Under the pieces are notes generated by a model, which was not told the DNA's origin, ran no database searches, and saw nothing but the letters and a program-made list of their open reading frames with translations. A program made the translations under genes and the position numbers. From positions 1-37,210 of the forward strand of contig JACQDQ010000242.1 of the NCBI GenBank assembly GCA_016201015.1: DNA of 37,210 nt, read 5' to 3'. This DNA comes from Pseudomonadota bacterium. Lineage in GTDB: Bacteria > Pseudomonadota > Alphaproteobacteria > CACIAM-22H2. Shown here piece after piece: positions 29,818 to 37,210 of the stretch (position 1 is the first letter of the stretch; the number at the start of each line of letters is the position of its first letter).

Positions 29818-30366
29818 TTAACAGCTCGCGCCGATGCAGTTGCCGCCGCGGTCGGGGTAGTCGATCGGGAACAGTGCGACGAGCATGTCGCTCATAAGCT
29901 GCTTGAAGCGCGGGTCGTCGGGCTGGCTTGCGCCGGGGCCGATCGCCGAGACCTCGGTCAGCATTGAGTTCCCCAGGCAGAAGGCGGCGGTCGCCGCCAT
30001 CCTCCCGCCGGGCGCGGTGCCAAAGGCGGCCTCGCTGTTGCGGCACAGATCGCGTACGCCCGTCGACTGCGTGCCGAAGACGACGACCACGTGGTAGCTG
30101 TAGGTGTCGTTCGGCCGCGGCGTCTGCGTGTAGTGCAGCCGCGGCCCGAGGTTTTGCCCCTGCATGGCGGCGAGGACGCCGGAATTGTCGCGGTCGGACG
30201 GGAAGGGGTTATTGCGAATGACGGCAAGGGTATCGCCCGCGCCGGCTGCAAACGCGACGGCAGTCGGGTAGTAGGGAGTGTTGCGATACAAACCGTAGAC
30301 GGTCGGGCTATCGGCACATCCGGCAAGCGCGAGGATAGTGCCGACGGCGATCAGTTTGCGGGTCAT
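29818..30366 (-). CDS. Putative lipoprotein, paralogue 1
   Basis: Lipobox-like MTRKLIAVGTILALAGCADSPTVYGLYRNTPYYPT; strong similarity to the next ORF. Confidence 0.7.
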   Translation of the reverse strand: MTRKLIAVGTILALAGCADSPTVYGLYRNTPYYPTAVAFAAGAGDTLAVIRNNPFPSDRDNSGVLAAMQGQNLGPRLHYTQTPRPNDTYSYHVVVVFGTQSTGVRDLCRNSEAAFGTAPGGRMAATAAFCLGNSMLTEVSAIGPGASQPDDPRFKQLMSDMLVALFPIDYPDRGGNCIGASC

Positions 30367-30539
30367 CGGGGTTCCTCAATCCAAGACGCAGTTGGGCCGC
30401 GCGCGAGACATCGCGTCGCACATATGGGGCGGAACAATGGCAGCGCCATATATGACCGCGGAAATCACCAAAAATTGACCGGCCGGCGGACCGTAGCCAC
30501 GACCGGCGCTCGCGGCCCCGCTCCAACCACTTGGGTGGG

Positions 30540-31088
30540 CTAACAATTTCCAGTGCAATCGTCATAGATCAAATTGCTCGGGAAGAGCGCGACCAGGAGC
30601 TGATTCATCAGTCGTTTGAACCGCGGATCTTCGGGGCGGTCGCTCGCGGCGCCGGTCGCGGATGCCTCGGTCAGCATGTTGCGGCCGAAGCAGAATGCCG
30701 CCGTCGCGGCAAGGCGTCCGGCCGGAGATGGACCAAAGGGCGCATCATGGTCGCGACACATATTGCGGCGGCCGATGGGCGGCGTACCGAAGGCGACAAC
30801 CACCTGATAGCCTGACATGCCGCTGGGCTGTTGCATTTGCGTGTAGTGCAGCGGCGGCCCGGCATTCTGGCCCTGCATCGCGGCGAGGACGCCGGAATTG
30901 TCGCGGTCGGCGGCGAAGGGGTTGTGGCGGATGACCGCAAGGGTATCGCCGCGCCCGGCGGCATCGGCGACATAGGTCGGATCGTAGGTCGATGTGGAAT
31001 AGAAGTTGTAGACGGCCGGCTCATCGGCGCAGGCGGCGAGCGCCATGACGGCGGTGGTAAAAATCAGGTTGCGATTCATCGCTGGCAT
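30540..31088 (-). CDS. Putative lipoprotein, paralogue 2
   Basis: MNRNLIFTTAVMALAACADEPAVYNFYSTSTYDPT; shares GDTLAVIRxNPFxxDRDNSGVLAAMQGQNxGPxLHYTQ and MAATAAFC/LAATAAFC blocks with paralogue 1. Confidence 0.7.
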   Translation of the reverse strand: MPAMNRNLIFTTAVMALAACADEPAVYNFYSTSTYDPTYVADAAGRGDTLAVIRHNPFAADRDNSGVLAAMQGQNAGPPLHYTQMQQPSGMSGYQVVVAFGTPPIGRRNMCRDHDAPFGPSPAGRLAATAAFCFGRNMLTEASATGAASDRPEDPRFKRLMNQLLVALFPSNLIYDDCTGNC

Positions 31089-31284: not shown

Positions 31285-31484
31285 TCATACGTCGAGGCCG
31301 CGGGCGAACTCGGAGTTTACCTGGACAAAGGCATGCCGCGGCTCCGACTTGCGGCCCATCAGGCTCTCGACCAGCTTGGCCGTCCGGTTCTACTCCCCGG
31401 TGCCACCATCGCCGCCAGCGATCTCGAGCCGCAGCACGATACGCCGGCCGGGGTCCGAGGTGGTTTCTTTGAGTTGCGAGGCAG
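31285..31484 (-). pseudogene. Displaced, decayed duplicate of the parE 3' end (copy A)
   Basis: Ungapped match to 35393-35592, about 27 differences in 200 columns by hand; same orientation; the parE frame has an internal stop (GGE*NRTAKLVESLMGRK). Confidence 0.88.
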
Positions 31485-31564
31485 GTACACTAACAACCCC
31501 GCTTGCCCCGACTCGGACCAGTCTGTAATTGTATGGTGCCTACAACCGGTGATGGGTTGTCAGG

Positions 31565-32497
31565 ATGGCAAGGATCTGCATCAACATCGTGCTGATCGGC
31601 TTGGTTGCGCTCGCGGCGGCAGCCGGCGTGGCGGCACAGACGCTGAGCCACGGCATGGTGTTCCGGGATTGCCCGGGATGCCCGGAGATGGTGGTCATCG
31701 GCGCCGGCAGTTTCACCATGGGCGTGCCGCCGGGTGAGGAAGAGCGCGAGCGCCTGCTGGTGGCGGTCCGAGGCCGCTCGGTGCCGCAGCATCCGGTGTC
31801 GGTGCGGCAGTTTGCCATTAGCCGCTTCGAGGCGACGCGTGGCGAGTTTGCGACCTTCATACGTGAAACCGGGCACCAAGCCGGCAGTACGTGCTGGAGT
31901 GTGGGTGAGGATGGCTGGAAGGAACGCACCGGACTGAACTGGCAGGATCCCGGTTTCGAGCAAACAGACCGCCATCCGGTGGCCTGTGTGAATTGGAACG
32001 ATGCCAAGGCTTACGTCGGCTGGCTTGCAAGGAAGACGGGCGGCCCTTATCGGCTGCTGAGCGAGGCGGAATGGGAATTTGCGGCCCGGGCGGCGACCCA
32101 GACATCACGGTATTGGGGCGATGACGCGAGCGCAGCGTGCGGCTATGCCAATGTCTCCGATCAAACGCAAAAGAACGCGGGCTTCACCGGCAGATTTTTC
32201 GAGTGCAGCGATGGTCACGTTTACACTGCGCCGGTCGGGAGTTTTCGCGCCAATGGATTCGCGCTGTACGACATGCTCGGCAATGTATGGGAATGGGTGG
32301 AGGATTGCTGGAACGATACCTATCAGGGCGCACCCAGCGACGGGCAGGCTTGGATAACCGGATACTGCAATCGCCGGGTCGCTCGCGGCGGGTCCTGGTA
32401 CGACCACCCGGGGATCATCCGCGTCGGCATCCGGGACGGCGGCAGCACCCTGAACCGGAACAGCTTTCTCGGCTTCCGCGTGGCCAAAACCTTGTGA
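31565..32497 (+). CDS. Exported SUMF1/formylglycine-generating-enzyme-fold protein without the usual C-terminal Cys pair
   Basis: Signal peptide; MVVIGAGSFTMGVPPGEEE; HPVACVNWNDAKAYVGWLARKTGGPYRLLSEAEWEFAARAAT; NGFALYDMLGNVWEWVEDCW; RVARGGSWYDHPGIIRVGIRDGG. Confidence 0.88.
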   Translation: MARICINIVLIGLVALAAAAGVAAQTLSHGMVFRDCPGCPEMVVIGAGSFTMGVPPGEEERERLLVAVRGRSVPQHPVSVRQFAISRFEATRGEFATFIRETGHQAGSTCWSVGEDGWKERTGLNWQDPGFEQTDRHPVACVNWNDAKAYVGWLARKTGGPYRLLSEAEWEFAARAATQTSRYWGDDASAACGYANVSDQTQKNAGFTGRFFECSDGHVYTAPVGSFRANGFALYDMLGNVWEWVEDCWNDTYQGAPSDGQAWITGYCNRRVARGGSWYDHPGIIRVGIRDGGSTLNRNSFLGFRVAKTL

Positions 32498-32567: not shown

Positions 32568-32631
32568 GTCGCGGGCGAACTCGGCGTTTTCCTGGAAATA
32601 GGCCAGGCGCAGCTCCGGCTCGCGGCCAATC
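32568..32631 (-). pseudogene. Displaced short duplicate of the parE 3' end (copy B)
   Basis: 64-bp ungapped match to 35405-35468 with 3 differences by hand. Confidence 0.9.
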
Positions 32632-32637
32632 TGGATT

Positions 32638-33531
32638 TCAGGCTCGGTTTGCCTTCAACCGGCGCAGGAAGCCATGCAGCATCTCGATGGCGAGGCCGTG
32701 CAGCATGAGACGGAATCCGGCCTCAAGAGTTGAATACGGCACCATCGGGTGGCCGTTGCTGATCAGGCCGAGATAGTCCTCGCGGTCGATCAGGCGCGCG
32801 GCGTAGATGCCGACGGTTTCGTCCAGTTGCAGAGAGTTGCTCGCGCGCCAGAAATCGCTGTCGGTCAGCAGCAGCGCGTAGACCGGCGTGTAGGCCTCGA
32901 TCGCGGTATGAAGATCGATGAAGTTCAGCGGCCCGTCGGGCATCGGGGCGAGATCGAACGGCGCATCGCTGATGGCGCTAAAATCAAGCTTGGCACGCGG
33001 ACGAATCTCCTCGCCGCGTCGCTCAAGCTCCTGATTCAGCTGAATCACGAAATTGAAGATGTTGAGATCGTGAATCAGAAAGACATTGTCGAGAATGTCT
33101 TCCAGACAGCGTGGCCGCAAGGCGGGAATATCCGGGCGGAAGCCGGGTGTCGCATTGTCGGCGACGAAAGACAGGATTTCGCTGGCGGCGTTGAAGTGGC
33201 GCAGGATCAGCCGGTTCGCATCGGGCCGTAGGAACGTCTTCATGCCGAAATAAAGAAGCCGATGCAGCAGGCGCGGCGCGTTGGGCCGGCGTGGCGAGAG
33301 CGTGCGCAGGAGTTGGACGAGGATGATCGAGATCCGGGCAAGCGGCCGGACGAACGGCAGGAGAAACTGCCGGCTCCTAGAGGCTTGTGAGCGCAGAAGG
33401 TCGAGCTTGGCGCCGTCGTCCATCGGCATGGCGCGGTCAAGCGCCAGGGCGAGCCAGGGGCTGGGGTCGGCGGGATTATAGGCGCCCAGCGCCGCCTCGA
33501 TCGCTTGGCGTGCAATCGTTCGCTCAGACAT
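32638..33531 (-). CDS. Hypothetical protein, helix-rich, third gene of the parE-proximal cassette
   Basis: MSERTIARQAIEAALGAYNPADPSPWLALALDRAMPMDDGAKLDLLRSQ...; 8-nt overlap with the upstream gene; no family recognised with certainty. Confidence 0.75.
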   Translation of the reverse strand: MSERTIARQAIEAALGAYNPADPSPWLALALDRAMPMDDGAKLDLLRSQASRSRQFLLPFVRPLARISIILVQLLRTLSPRRPNAPRLLHRLLYFGMKTFLRPDANRLILRHFNAASEILSFVADNATPGFRPDIPALRPRCLEDILDNVFLIHDLNIFNFVIQLNQELERRGEEIRPRAKLDFSAISDAPFDLAPMPDGPLNFIDLHTAIEAYTPVYALLLTDSDFWRASNSLQLDETVGIYAARLIDREDYLGLISNGHPMVPYSTLEAGFRLMLHGLAIEMLHGFLRRLKANRA

Positions 33532-34213
33532 TGTCGATCTCTTCGAGCTGCAGGCGATAGAGGCGAGCGACGATGCGCGCCGTGCGGACGATTTCCGTTG
33601 CCGGCGTACCGGCCGAGAGCGCGAGGTCGAGCGCTCTCTCCAGAGCGTCAAGGTGCGCGGGATCGTTGGTGCCGTGATGCCGCAGAAACGAGACGGCGTC
33701 ATCGCCGAGGCCAAGCTGTTCGCGAATGACCTGCGCCCAGGATGCGGCAACGCGCGCTCCAAGACCCTCGATGATCGTCATCGCGCCGATAAGGGCGAGC
33801 GGCGCGGGCCGGCTGGCGGCCTGGAACATCCAGGCGGACAGCGCTTCCGAGCCGATATTCTTAGCGGTGCTGCGGATCTCCGCCAGCATTCCGCCGCAGG
33901 CGACGAAATCCTGCTCCAACATCAGGTAGTCTTTGTGCTCCGCCACGGCGTGGCGCAGGAACATCGAGCGGAGCTCTTCGTGCTCGGGGCCGATATTGGA
34001 GGCGGCGCGGGCGATCCAGCGCGCGCCATCCACGACCTGCTGGCGCAGATTGACCAGCAGGCGGCGGTAATCCTCGAGGCGCAGCTTGCCGCGCTCGATC
34101 TTGGCGATGATCGGCACGATGTGCAGTGCCGATTCAAACTCGAACCGGACCTGCAGCAGCTCGCGGGTCGTCTGCTGCACGGCAGGCGCGAGATCGGTGC
34201 TGGGTGCGTTCAT
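33524..34213 (-). CDS. Heme-oxygenase-like fold (iron-containing redox enzyme / HDO-like) protein
   Basis: HAVAEHKDYLMLEQDFVACGG; TIIEGLGARVAASWA; FLRHHGTNDPAHLDALERALDLAL with an H-x3-D-x2-H ligand-like motif. Confidence 0.7.
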   Translation of the reverse strand: MNAPSTDLAPAVQQTTRELLQVRFEFESALHIVPIIAKIERGKLRLEDYRRLLVNLRQQVVDGARWIARAASNIGPEHEELRSMFLRHAVAEHKDYLMLEQDFVACGGMLAEIRSTAKNIGSEALSAWMFQAASRPAPLALIGAMTIIEGLGARVAASWAQVIREQLGLGDDAVSFLRHHGTNDPAHLDALERALDLALSAGTPATEIVRTARIVARLYRLQLEEIDNV

Positions 34214-35376
34214 TGCCGTGCTCCCGGCGGGGTGGTGACCGTCAGCAGCGCAAAAGAGATGATGCAGCGTCCGCTTTCGGGCACGACGCAGAGAATTTTC
34301 TGGCCATGGCGAAGCGGGCGCTCTTCAACCAGGGCGGCGAGCGAGGCGAGGATAGCCGCACTGCCGATATTGCCGACACGCGGCAAGGTGCCGAACCATT
34401 TCTCGGCCGGAATATTGCAGCCGGCTTTGTCGAGGAGGGCCACCATCTCCTTGCGCAGAAATTCGGCCGAGTAGTGGCAGACAAGCCAGTCGATCTCGGT
34501 GATCGTCAGGCGGCCCTGGCCGACCAACCGCAGAAATTCCGCGATCCACATCGGCAACAGGCGTTCGAGCAGGCGGAAATCCTGGCGCAGGACGAAGTCC
34601 CCGCGTGCGACGGCGGCGCCAGCACTCGCGGCAAGGTTCCAGGGCGTCACATCACCGCTGTCGTCGTCGCGCGCACCGCCACCCCACATGCAGGTCTCGA
34701 CACGATCGGCGAAGGAGCGCAGCTCGATCCACTCGATCTTGAGCGAGAGGCTATGTTCGTTCGGCCGTGGCTCGACGATCGCCGCCGAGGCGCCGTCGGA
34801 GAGCGTCCAGCGCAGGAAATCCGCATCCTTGGGGATGGCGCCGCGCGCATCGACGAGATCCGTGTTTTCATAGGCGCCGGGACGGAAGAAGCGGCTGGCG
34901 AATTCCGAGCCCACCACGGCCGCGGCACGCTTGCCGTCGGCGCGGACCTGCAAGGCGGCAGTCTTCAGTGCCATCATCACGCCGGCGCACACGCTCTGAA
35001 AGCTGGCGATCTCAAGCGGTCCGAGCGCGGTTTCGCCATGAACCATGCTGGCGAAGCCGGGCACGAGGACGTCGTTCTGGGTCGTCGCCGCGGCCAGGAA
35101 ATCAATTTGGGCTGCGGACACTTCCGACTTGGCAAGCGCATCGGCGAGGGCCGAGGCGGCGAGCTTGGCATTGGTCCAGCGCGTGCGCCCGTCGCGGTCG
35201 AGCGCATAGTGGCGCGTGCGGATGCCGTTCTGGGCCAGGGCGATCGGGCCAAGGCGCGAGGCCTTGCCGCAGATTCGGCCGATGAAATCTTCCATCTCGG
35301 CATTGCCGACCGGCTCGCCCGGGAGACAGCGTCCGAGTGCCGTGACGAAGGCCTCGCGCAGCAGGACTTCGCTCAT
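34210..35376 (-). CDS. Beta-ketoacyl-ACP synthase III-like (thiolase-fold) enzyme
   Basis: Candidate Cys-His-Asn triad: FQSVCAGVMMALKTA, DWLVCHYSAEFLRKEM, PRVGNIGSAAILASL; overlaps the HDO-like gene by ATGA. Confidence 0.82.
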   Translation of the reverse strand: MSEVLLREAFVTALGRCLPGEPVGNAEMEDFIGRICGKASRLGPIALAQNGIRTRHYALDRDGRTRWTNAKLAASALADALAKSEVSAAQIDFLAAATTQNDVLVPGFASMVHGETALGPLEIASFQSVCAGVMMALKTAALQVRADGKRAAAVVGSEFASRFFRPGAYENTDLVDARGAIPKDADFLRWTLSDGASAAIVEPRPNEHSLSLKIEWIELRSFADRVETCMWGGGARDDDSGDVTPWNLAASAGAAVARGDFVLRQDFRLLERLLPMWIAEFLRLVGQGRLTITEIDWLVCHYSAEFLRKEMVALLDKAGCNIPAEKWFGTLPRVGNIGSAAILASLAALVEERPLRHGQKILCVVPESGRCIISFALLTVTTPPGARQ

Positions 35377-35392: not shown

Positions 35393-37210
35393 TCACACGT
35401 CGAGGTCGCGGGCGAACTCGGCGTTTTCCTGGATATAGGCCAGGCGCAGCTCCGGCTTGCGGCCCATCAGGCTCTCGACCAGCTTGGCCGTCCGGTTCTT
35501 CTCCTTGGCGCCGCCATCGCCGCCGGCGATCTCGACCCGCAGGAGGACACGCCGGCCGGGGTCCATGGTGGTTTCCTTGAGCTGCGACGCCGGCATCTCG
35601 CCGAGGCCCTTGAAGCGGCTGATCTCGACCTTGGTCTTGCCCTTGAAGGTCGTCTTGAGCAGCTCGTCCTTGTGCTTGTCGTCGCGCGCATAGGTGACCG
35701 TGCCGCCGGCGCTCAGGCGATAGAGCGGCGGCATGGCGAGGAAGAGGTGGCCGCCTTCAATCAGCTTCGGGATCTCGCGATAGAAGAAGGTCATGAGCAG
35801 CGAGGCGATATGGGCGCCGTCGACGTCGGCGTCGGTCATGATGACGATGCGCTCATAGCGCAGCTTGGCTTCGTCATAGGTGTCGCCGGTGCCGCAGCCG
35901 AGCGCCTGGATGAGATCGGCCAGCTCCTGATTGGCGCGCAGCTTGTCGCTCGAGGCGCTGGCGACGTTGAGGATCTTGCCGCGCAGCGGCAGGATGGCCT
36001 GCGTCTCGCGCTGGCGCGCCTGCTTGGCCGAGCCGCCGGCGGAATCGCCTTCGACCAGGAACAGCTCGGTGCCCTCCGGCGTGTTGCGCGTGCAGTCGGC
36101 GAGCTTGCCCGGCAGCCGCAGGCGGCGCGTCGCCGATTTGCGCGCGAGGTCCTTTTCTTGGCGGCGGCGCTGGCGCTCCTCGGCCCGCTCGATGACGCGA
36201 TCGAGCAGCGCCTTGGCGGCGCCGGCATCGTCCGAGAGCCAGTGGTCGAAGTGATCCTTGACCGAGCCCTCGACCAGGCGCTGCGCCTCCGGCATGCCGA
36301 GGCGCTCCTTGGTCTGGCCCTGGAATTGCGGGTCGCGGATGAACAGCGACAGGAGGATGACGGCGCCGTCCATCGCATCCTCGGCGGTGATCTGCGCGGC
36401 GCGGCGATTGCCCAGGCGGTCGCCGCAGTCGCGTAGGCCGCGCGTCAGGGCCGTGCGCAGACCCGTCTCGTGGCTGCCGCCCTGCGGCGTCGGCACGGTG
36501 TTACAATAGGAGTGGACCTCACCCTCCTCGTCGCCTGGCCAGGCCACCGCCCATTCGACATGGCCGAGATTGTCGGGCAGCTTGCCCTCGCCGATGAAAG
36601 ATTGCGGCGTCCAGGTCGGCCGCTTGCCGACCGTCTCGGCGAGAAAATCGCTGAGGCCGCCGGGGAAGTGCAGGGTGGCGGTGGCCGGGGTCTGGTCGTT
36701 GCTCTTGATCAGCTTGGCGTCGCAGGTCCAGCGGATCTCGACGCCCTTGAATAGGAAGGCCTTGGCCCGCGCCATGCGATAGATGGTCGAGGGGCGGAAA
36801 TGAGCGTGGCCGCCGAAGATGTTCGGGTCGGGATGGAAGCGGATCACCGTGCCGCGGCGGTTCTGCACTGCGCCCTTGGATTTGAGCGCGCCTTTGGCCT
36901 TGCCGCGGCTATAGGATTGCGTCCACAGCTTGCGGTCGCGCGCCACCTCGACCTCGAGGACGTCGGACAGGGCATTGACCACCGAGATGCCGACGCCGTG
37001 CAGCCCGCCGGCGGTGGCGTAGGTCTTGCCGTCGAACTTGCCGCCCGAGTGCAGCATGGTGAGGATCACCTCGAGCGCCGACTTGTTCTTGAACTTGGGG
37101 TGCGGGTCGACCGGAATGCCGCGCCCATTGTCGCGGACGGTGACCCAGTCATCCTCGGCCAGCTCGATCTCGATCAGGCTGGCATGGCCGGCCACCGCCT
37201 CGTCCATGGC
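35393..37210 (-). CDS. parE: DNA topoisomerase IV subunit B (N-terminus beyond the window)
   Basis: DEAVAGHASLIEIELAEDDWVTVRDNGRGIPVDPHPK; LHSGGKFDGKTYATAGGLHGVGISVVNALSD; LFLVEGDSAGGSAKQARQRETQAILPLRGKILNVASAS; VIMTDADVDGAHIASLL. Confidence 0.95.
   Translation of the reverse strand, partial: AMDEAVAGHASLIEIELAEDDWVTVRDNGRGIPVDPHPKFKNKSALEVILTMLHSGGKFDGKTYATAGGLHGVGISVVNALSDVLEVEVARDRKLWTQSYSRGKAKGALKSKGAVQNRRGTVIRFHPDPNIFGGHAHFRPSTIYRMARAKAFLFKGVEIRWTCDAKLIKSNDQTPATATLHFPGGLSDFLAETVGKRPTWTPQSFIGEGKLPDNLGHVEWAVAWPGDEEGEVHSYCNTVPTPQGGSHETGLRTALTRGLRDCGDRLGNRRAAQITAEDAMDGAVILLSLFIRDPQFQGQTKERLGMPEAQRLVEGSVKDHFDHWLSDDAGAAKALLDRVIERAEERQRRRQEKDLARKSATRRLRLPGKLADCTRNTPEGTELFLVEGDSAGGSAKQARQRETQAILPLRGKILNVASASSDKLRANQELADLIQALGCGTGDTYDEAKLRYERIVIMTDADVDGAHIASLLMTFFYREIPKLIEGGHLFLAMPPLYRLSAGGTVTYARDDKHKDELLKTTFKGKTKVEISRFKGLGEMPASQLKETTMDPGRRVLLRVEIAGGDGGAKEKNRTAKLVESLMGRKPELRLAYIQENAEFARDLDV

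Follow-up and report, generated by a model that had tools for sequence, protein, structure and literature searches.

Within a single bacterial contig of 37,210 nucleotides (JACQDQ010000242.1), which was analysed over its whole length and is referred to here as the window, three overlapping genes encode a StlD/DarB-like ketosynthase (KAS), a heme-oxygenase-like oxidase (HDO; a homologue of proteins annotated as iron-containing redox enzymes) and a protein of the Pfam family DUF6999. This trio is a genuine system: the order KAS-HDO-DUF6999 is repeated across phyla far above chance. The original prediction for this DNA had pointed to three genes with overlapping stops and starts, and both overlaps could be located, as an ATGA at the KAS/HDO junction (34213-34210) and as 8 nt shared by HDO and DUF6999 (33531-33524). 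The window is an entire contig of a 5.33-Mb, 551-contig assembly, assigned to the Alphaproteobacteria from its relatives.

About 500 species genomes in at least five phyla carry this three-part module. Because the three genes travel together through at least five phyla, they probably make a single fatty-acid-derived compound. We regard the fuller proposal, that the three genes form a small module, moving horizontally between genomes, for one fatty-acyl-derived product, as evenly balanced.

Linkage, fusion and distribution of the three genes

A scan for DUF6999 with one genome per species gave 506 stretches, of which the best 80, chosen by similarity, were kept; five genomes from an even class sample were considered along with them. 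As a check on this similarity-selected set we used even samples of 385 alphaproteobacterial genomes and of 399 genomes at the phylum level. In these 80 stretches and five genomes, KAS and HDO genes lie near DUF6999 wherever the contig permits, although the HDO and DUF6999 genes of a few acidobacterial loci are separated by others. The only split locus seen is that of Novosphingobium profundi (L022, 106-1242 and 9286-10852), in which some 8 kb lie between KAS and HDO-DUF6999.

The original prediction hinged on conserved co-occurrence of the three genes elsewhere, and in the even samples this co-occurrence is strict. DUF6999 is present in six of the 385 alphaproteobacterial genomes and in eight further genomes of the phylum sample, and KAS and HDO are immediately upstream of it in 14 of these 14 carriers. 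Each of the six DUF6999 carriers among the 385 genomes has a close HDO homologue (309-339 bits), and none of the other genomes has an HDO scoring above 91 bits. KAS homologues were found in the same six genomes and in one more, G086, which lacks DUF6999; it was set aside as a counterexample to the linkage, its KAS sitting at a contig end. A search of a plasmid collection returned one distant DUF6999 match only, 26% identical and located on a Pseudoalteromonas megaplasmid, which is informative for gene order alone: the order is the same, with the annotations beta-ketoacyl-ACP (acyl carrier protein) synthase III, iron-containing redox enzyme and hypothetical protein.

KAS and HDO form a single open reading frame (ORF) in 35 of 84 loci, which belong to at least two lineages, and are likewise fused in six of the eight phylum-sample carriers. 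The HDO tree covers Pseudomonadota, Bacillota, Acidobacteriota, Myxococcota and Planctomycetota; three changes between fused and separate states are needed on it, and its starred branches force at least two. The fusion has therefore been gained or lost on more than one occasion. These natural fusions offer a single-protein test of ketosynthase-coupled O2 chemistry.

Cultured carriers of the trio include Paenibacillus, Cohnella, Sphingomonas, Microbulbifer, Phenylobacterium, Alcaligenes and Luteimonas. A divergent fused lineage of Luteimonas, Vulcaniibacterium and Burkholderiales takes up 13 rows of the HDO tree (L051, L054, L058, L059, L066, L069, L070, L074, L075, L077, L081, L086 and L093), and several of its members have fatty-acid hydroxylase or desaturase neighbours. 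The trio of one record named Bacillus sp. 2B10 (L041) groups with Novosphingobium, and this assembly is probably contaminated or misnamed.

Active sites of the ketosynthase and the oxidase

The best NCBIfam match of KAS is the StlD/DarB model NF005293, at 335 bits against a curated cut-off of 450; its score with the DarB model NF053539 is 295 bits, the cut-off being 550. Six other KAS proteins of the family, fused and unfused, score 318-430 and 250-383 bits with these two models, in every case below the cut-off. The closest solved structure is StlD (5gk0, E=1e-66). The thiolase-fold triad Cys130/His301/Asn336 aligns with that of StlD and is invariant in 84 of 84 family sequences, and Arg189 of the FLRW motif is conserved in all 84 as well. 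We ruled out an ordinary FabH, as FabH-type models score only 63-78 bits, compared with 335 bits for StlD/DarB. Since the best match is to StlD/DarB, yet all tested members miss both cut-offs, we describe KAS on the basis of its sequence as a StlD/DarB-like sister group and not as a proven DarB, and formation of a 1,3-cyclohexanedione or resorcinol is only predicted. The KASIII-like enzyme with a Cys-His-Asn triad that had been proposed at first thus keeps its triad and its ketosynthase active site, but is StlD/DarB-like instead of a generic KASIII. It shares with StlD/DarB ketosynthases this sequence relation, the triad and the FLRW arginine, and differs from them in being partnered with HDO and DUF6999, not with a DarA aromatase and an ACP, and in its frequent fusion to HDO.

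HDO matches Pfam PF14518 above the gathering cut-off (E=2e-11), and its AlphaFold2 model (59 sequences; predicted local distance difference test (pLDDT) 96.3, predicted template modelling score (pTM) 0.91) has the heme-oxygenase-like helical fold. The top Foldseek matches are Sden_3740 (3dde, the best), CADD (template modelling (TM) score 0.80-0.87) and UndA (TM about 0.7); TenA and PqqC are also among the fold matches, ranked below CADD. PF12981 (DUF3865), an earlier guess for this protein, gave no match. Seven residues (H88, E92, D95, E149, H180, D184 and H187) are invariant in 59 of 59 homologues across five phyla, in the arrangement H88-x3-E92-x2-D95, then E149, then H180-x3-D184-x2-H187. 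The last of these motifs is the HGTNDPAH segment in which the original prediction had recognised H-x3-D-x2-H, and its placement of the protein in the heme-oxygenase-like diiron/iron-oxidase superfamily, with a metal-binding core, agrees with the modelled fold and the conserved metal-type residues.

The first helix is where HDO departs from this superfamily. Characterised HDOs have the ligand order Glu-His-Glu-His-(Asp/Glu)-His (PMC11363339), and in MboA the first pair is Glu86-x2-His89 (PMC13185094). In the trio, E149, H180, D184 and H187 fit this order, but the first pair is Glu92-x2-Asp95, accompanied by an extra invariant histidine: Asp95 occupies the canonical His place, and His88 sits one turn ahead of Glu92. 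The Glu-x2-His pair is retained at this position by 3dde and by ten HDOs of more distant relationship, drawn from other genomes. Judging by the alignment, the His ligand may have been relocated in the HDO of DUF6999 trios, and this invariant change of metal-ligand order makes it possible to test how HDO scaffolds are retuned. The window HDO is otherwise like UndA, CADD, BesC, SznF, AetD and MboA in its PF14518 match, its CADD/UndA fold, its alpha2 Glu and its alpha3 His-x3-Asp-x2-His; unlike them, it has a first-helix His-x3-Glu-x2-Asp and is paired or fused with a ketosynthase. In the part that was read of a 2026 review of HDOs (PMC13108848), the word ketosynthase does not appear. The only significant solved relative detectable by sequence is Sden_3740 (PDB 3dde, E=5e-13), a heme-oxygenase-like protein of unknown function that is also the best fold match, and in the alignment it has His where the trio has the invariant Asp95.

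The altered first helix, together with the presence of TenA and PqqC among the fold matches, could also mean that HDO is a metal-free, TenA/PqqC-like isomerase or cyclase helper that performs no O2 chemistry. We consider this very improbable: CADD outranks both proteins, and the set of histidines and carboxylates that is invariant in five phyla would not obviously be needed without a metal.

Large HDO-bearing ORFs also occur in genomes that lack DUF6999. Two that we examined as possible KAS fusions are instead fusions of an AMP-ligase with a C-terminal HDO domain, which belongs to a different HDO family and has the canonical Glu-x2-His. Such alphaproteobacterial fusions are about 670-715 aa long (L110, 6266-8410; L111, 7436-9442), and similar large ORFs are present in L114 and L115.

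DUF6999, lipid-gene neighbours and a proposed pathway

The third protein had been described as helix-rich and unassignable. The helical character stands, and a family can now be assigned, though still not a function: the protein matches DUF6999 (PF22523) with E=2e-110 and 368 bits (gathering cut-off 27), residues 19-293 covering positions 2-275 of the 275-position model. It is thus a full-length member of a family without a solved fold. Its AlphaFold2 model (58 sequences; pLDDT 92.9, pTM 0.90) is all-helical; a fold search against the PDB found nothing at E<=0.001, its top hit having E=0.6, and a sequence search of the PDB with the DUF6999 profile gave nothing significant. The fold of DUF6999 is therefore predicted with confidence yet has no relative among solved structures, and the protein is possibly a new enzyme class. 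Its invariant polar residues include H112, H154-D155, D237-E238, H278 and E283, with H286 near-invariant. The most hydrophobic 19-residue stretch usually lies at about residues 57-75, and its mean Kyte-Doolittle value exceeds 1.6 in 45 of the 58 members, which makes membrane association plausible.

Genes adjoining the trio give a further indication of its role. We took a census of 69 same-strand adjacent genes and listed their 25 commonest families. Fatty-acid desaturases account for seven of the 69 genes and acyl-ACP/phospholipid O-acyltransferases for another seven; fatty-acid hydroxylases are close to six loci and a TetR-type regulator to seven, and little else is recurrent. The recurrence of desaturases, O-acyltransferases and hydroxylases points to fatty-acyl substrates. 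The original prediction of a small acyl-derived product modified by an iron oxidase is refined, none of the outcomes named as refuting it having been observed: the KAS active site, the heme-oxygenase-like model and the co-occurrence support it, and the substrate is more likely to be long fatty-acyl chains.

As judged from its family, KAS would load an acyl thioester on Cys130 and join a second acyl thioester to it by condensation, which would yield an intermediate of the two-chain beta-dicarbonyl or 2,5-dialkylcyclohexane-1,3-dione type. HDO, often fused to KAS, would take this intermediate directly and use O2 at a dimetal site, probably of the diiron kind, to oxidise it; it would replace the DarA aromatase of known dialkylresorcinol pathways, aromatising or oxygenating the ring. 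In dialkylresorcinol clusters, DarB has DarA and an ACP as its partners (PMC3949708). Neither of the two is a recognised recurring neighbour of the trio: they are not among the 25 commonest families listed for the 69 adjacent genes, darA not having been searched genome-wide. In the third and least certain step DUF6999, helical, probably membrane-associated and with many invariant His, Asp and Glu residues, might carry out a further conversion, support one, or hand over the lipid. The ring-aromatising version of this pathway is tentative. It is similarly doubtful, if conceivable, that the trio represents an undescribed cross-phylum pathway to a lipid or a signal. Here a bifunctional ketosynthase-oxidase, its dimetal site rearranged to His-Glu-Asp, would oxidise the two-chain product of its own condensation, and DUF6999, as a new enzyme fold, would finish the molecule.

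Several observations weigh against this pathway. None of the seven KAS members tested reaches the curated StlD/DarB cut-offs, so ring formation should not be taken for granted, and the absence of the canonical first-helix Glu-His pair from HDO makes its metal occupancy uncertain. At most loci there is no lipid gene next door. What the analysis shows is the identity of the genes, the conservation of their active-site residues, the predicted folds, the strict linkage, the fusion and the lipid-type neighbours; the substrates, metal content and product are those that we infer.

The lipid-type neighbours could also accompany a hydrocarbon- or olefin-type pathway. One of the leading structural matches of HDO is the fatty-acid decarboxylase UndA, and two-chain condensation has a precedent in related ketosynthases (PMC4578411). 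However, StlD is by a wide margin the nearest solved ketosynthase to KAS, and the neighbour families that were listed include no additional recurring genes of an olefin pathway, so we judge such a pathway unlikely. Oxidation could also precede condensation, with HDO acting on an amino acid or amine, or on one acyl chain, and supplying KAS with an unusual building block. The fusion shows that KAS and HDO act together and says nothing on their order, but the recurrent neighbours are fatty-acid enzymes and no amino-acid-activating partner recurs beside the trio; this order of events appears rather improbable. The components KAS and HDO are themselves of known kinds. Our literature search, which covered KAS plus HDO, the "iron-containing redox enzyme family" and part of the 2026 HDO review, turned up no account of the trio, of the DUF6999 pairing, of the KAS-HDO fusion or of the His-Glu-Asp motif, and no paper naming DUF6999; most subscription papers lay outside it, so prior description is possible. 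As the module has only three genes, expression in Escherichia coli is feasible.

Probable insertion at the 3′ end of parE

Copies of the parE 3′ end flank the trio (Table 1), as had been noted at the outset together with the suggestion of horizontal acquisition. The 2.75 kb between the end of intact parE (35393) and the 72-nt copy is exactly the trio. In the genome search this copy appeared as 94% identity over 67 nt, and no further comparable parE 3′-end copy was found genome-wide.

Table 1. Positions of the trio and of the parE 3′-end sequences in the window
Feature	Position	Strand	Remarks
StlD/DarB-like ketosynthase (KAS)	34210..35376	minus	388 aa; triad C130/H301/N336
Heme-oxygenase-like oxidase (HDO), iron-containing-redox-enzyme homologue	33524..34213	minus	229 aa; PF14518
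DUF6999 protein	32638..33531	minus	297 aa; all-helical; PF22523
3′ end of intact parE	35393..35593	minus	trio boundary; repeat D1/D2
parE 3′-end copy, 72 nt	32568..32639	minus	92% identical; flush with DUF6999 stop codon
parE 3′-end copy, decayed, 201 nt	31285..31485	minus	87% identical; in-frame TAG; distal boundary

parE is conserved in all 23 genomes of the taxonomic family that were searched, and DUF6999 is absent from the 22 other family genomes searched for it. Because the trio is flush between parE 3′-end copies and is absent from these 22 relatives, it was probably acquired, and the best-fitting explanation is an insertion at the 3′ end of parE. There is no base composition anomaly at the trio, and no integrase was recognised among the ORFs examined. 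In a related genome (L145), parE is followed by genes for a lipoprotein-like protein, a hydrolase and a DEAD helicase, in this order, and neither the trio nor the gene described next is present.

A formylglycine-generating-enzyme-like gene (PF03781) lies on the plus strand at 31565-32497, between the two parE 3′-end copies, and suggests a second insertion at the same parE site. Beyond the decayed copy, positions 29818-31088 encode two tandem, paralogous secreted or lipoprotein-like proteins of 182 aa, which have no Pfam match and whose lone homologue in L145 follows parE.
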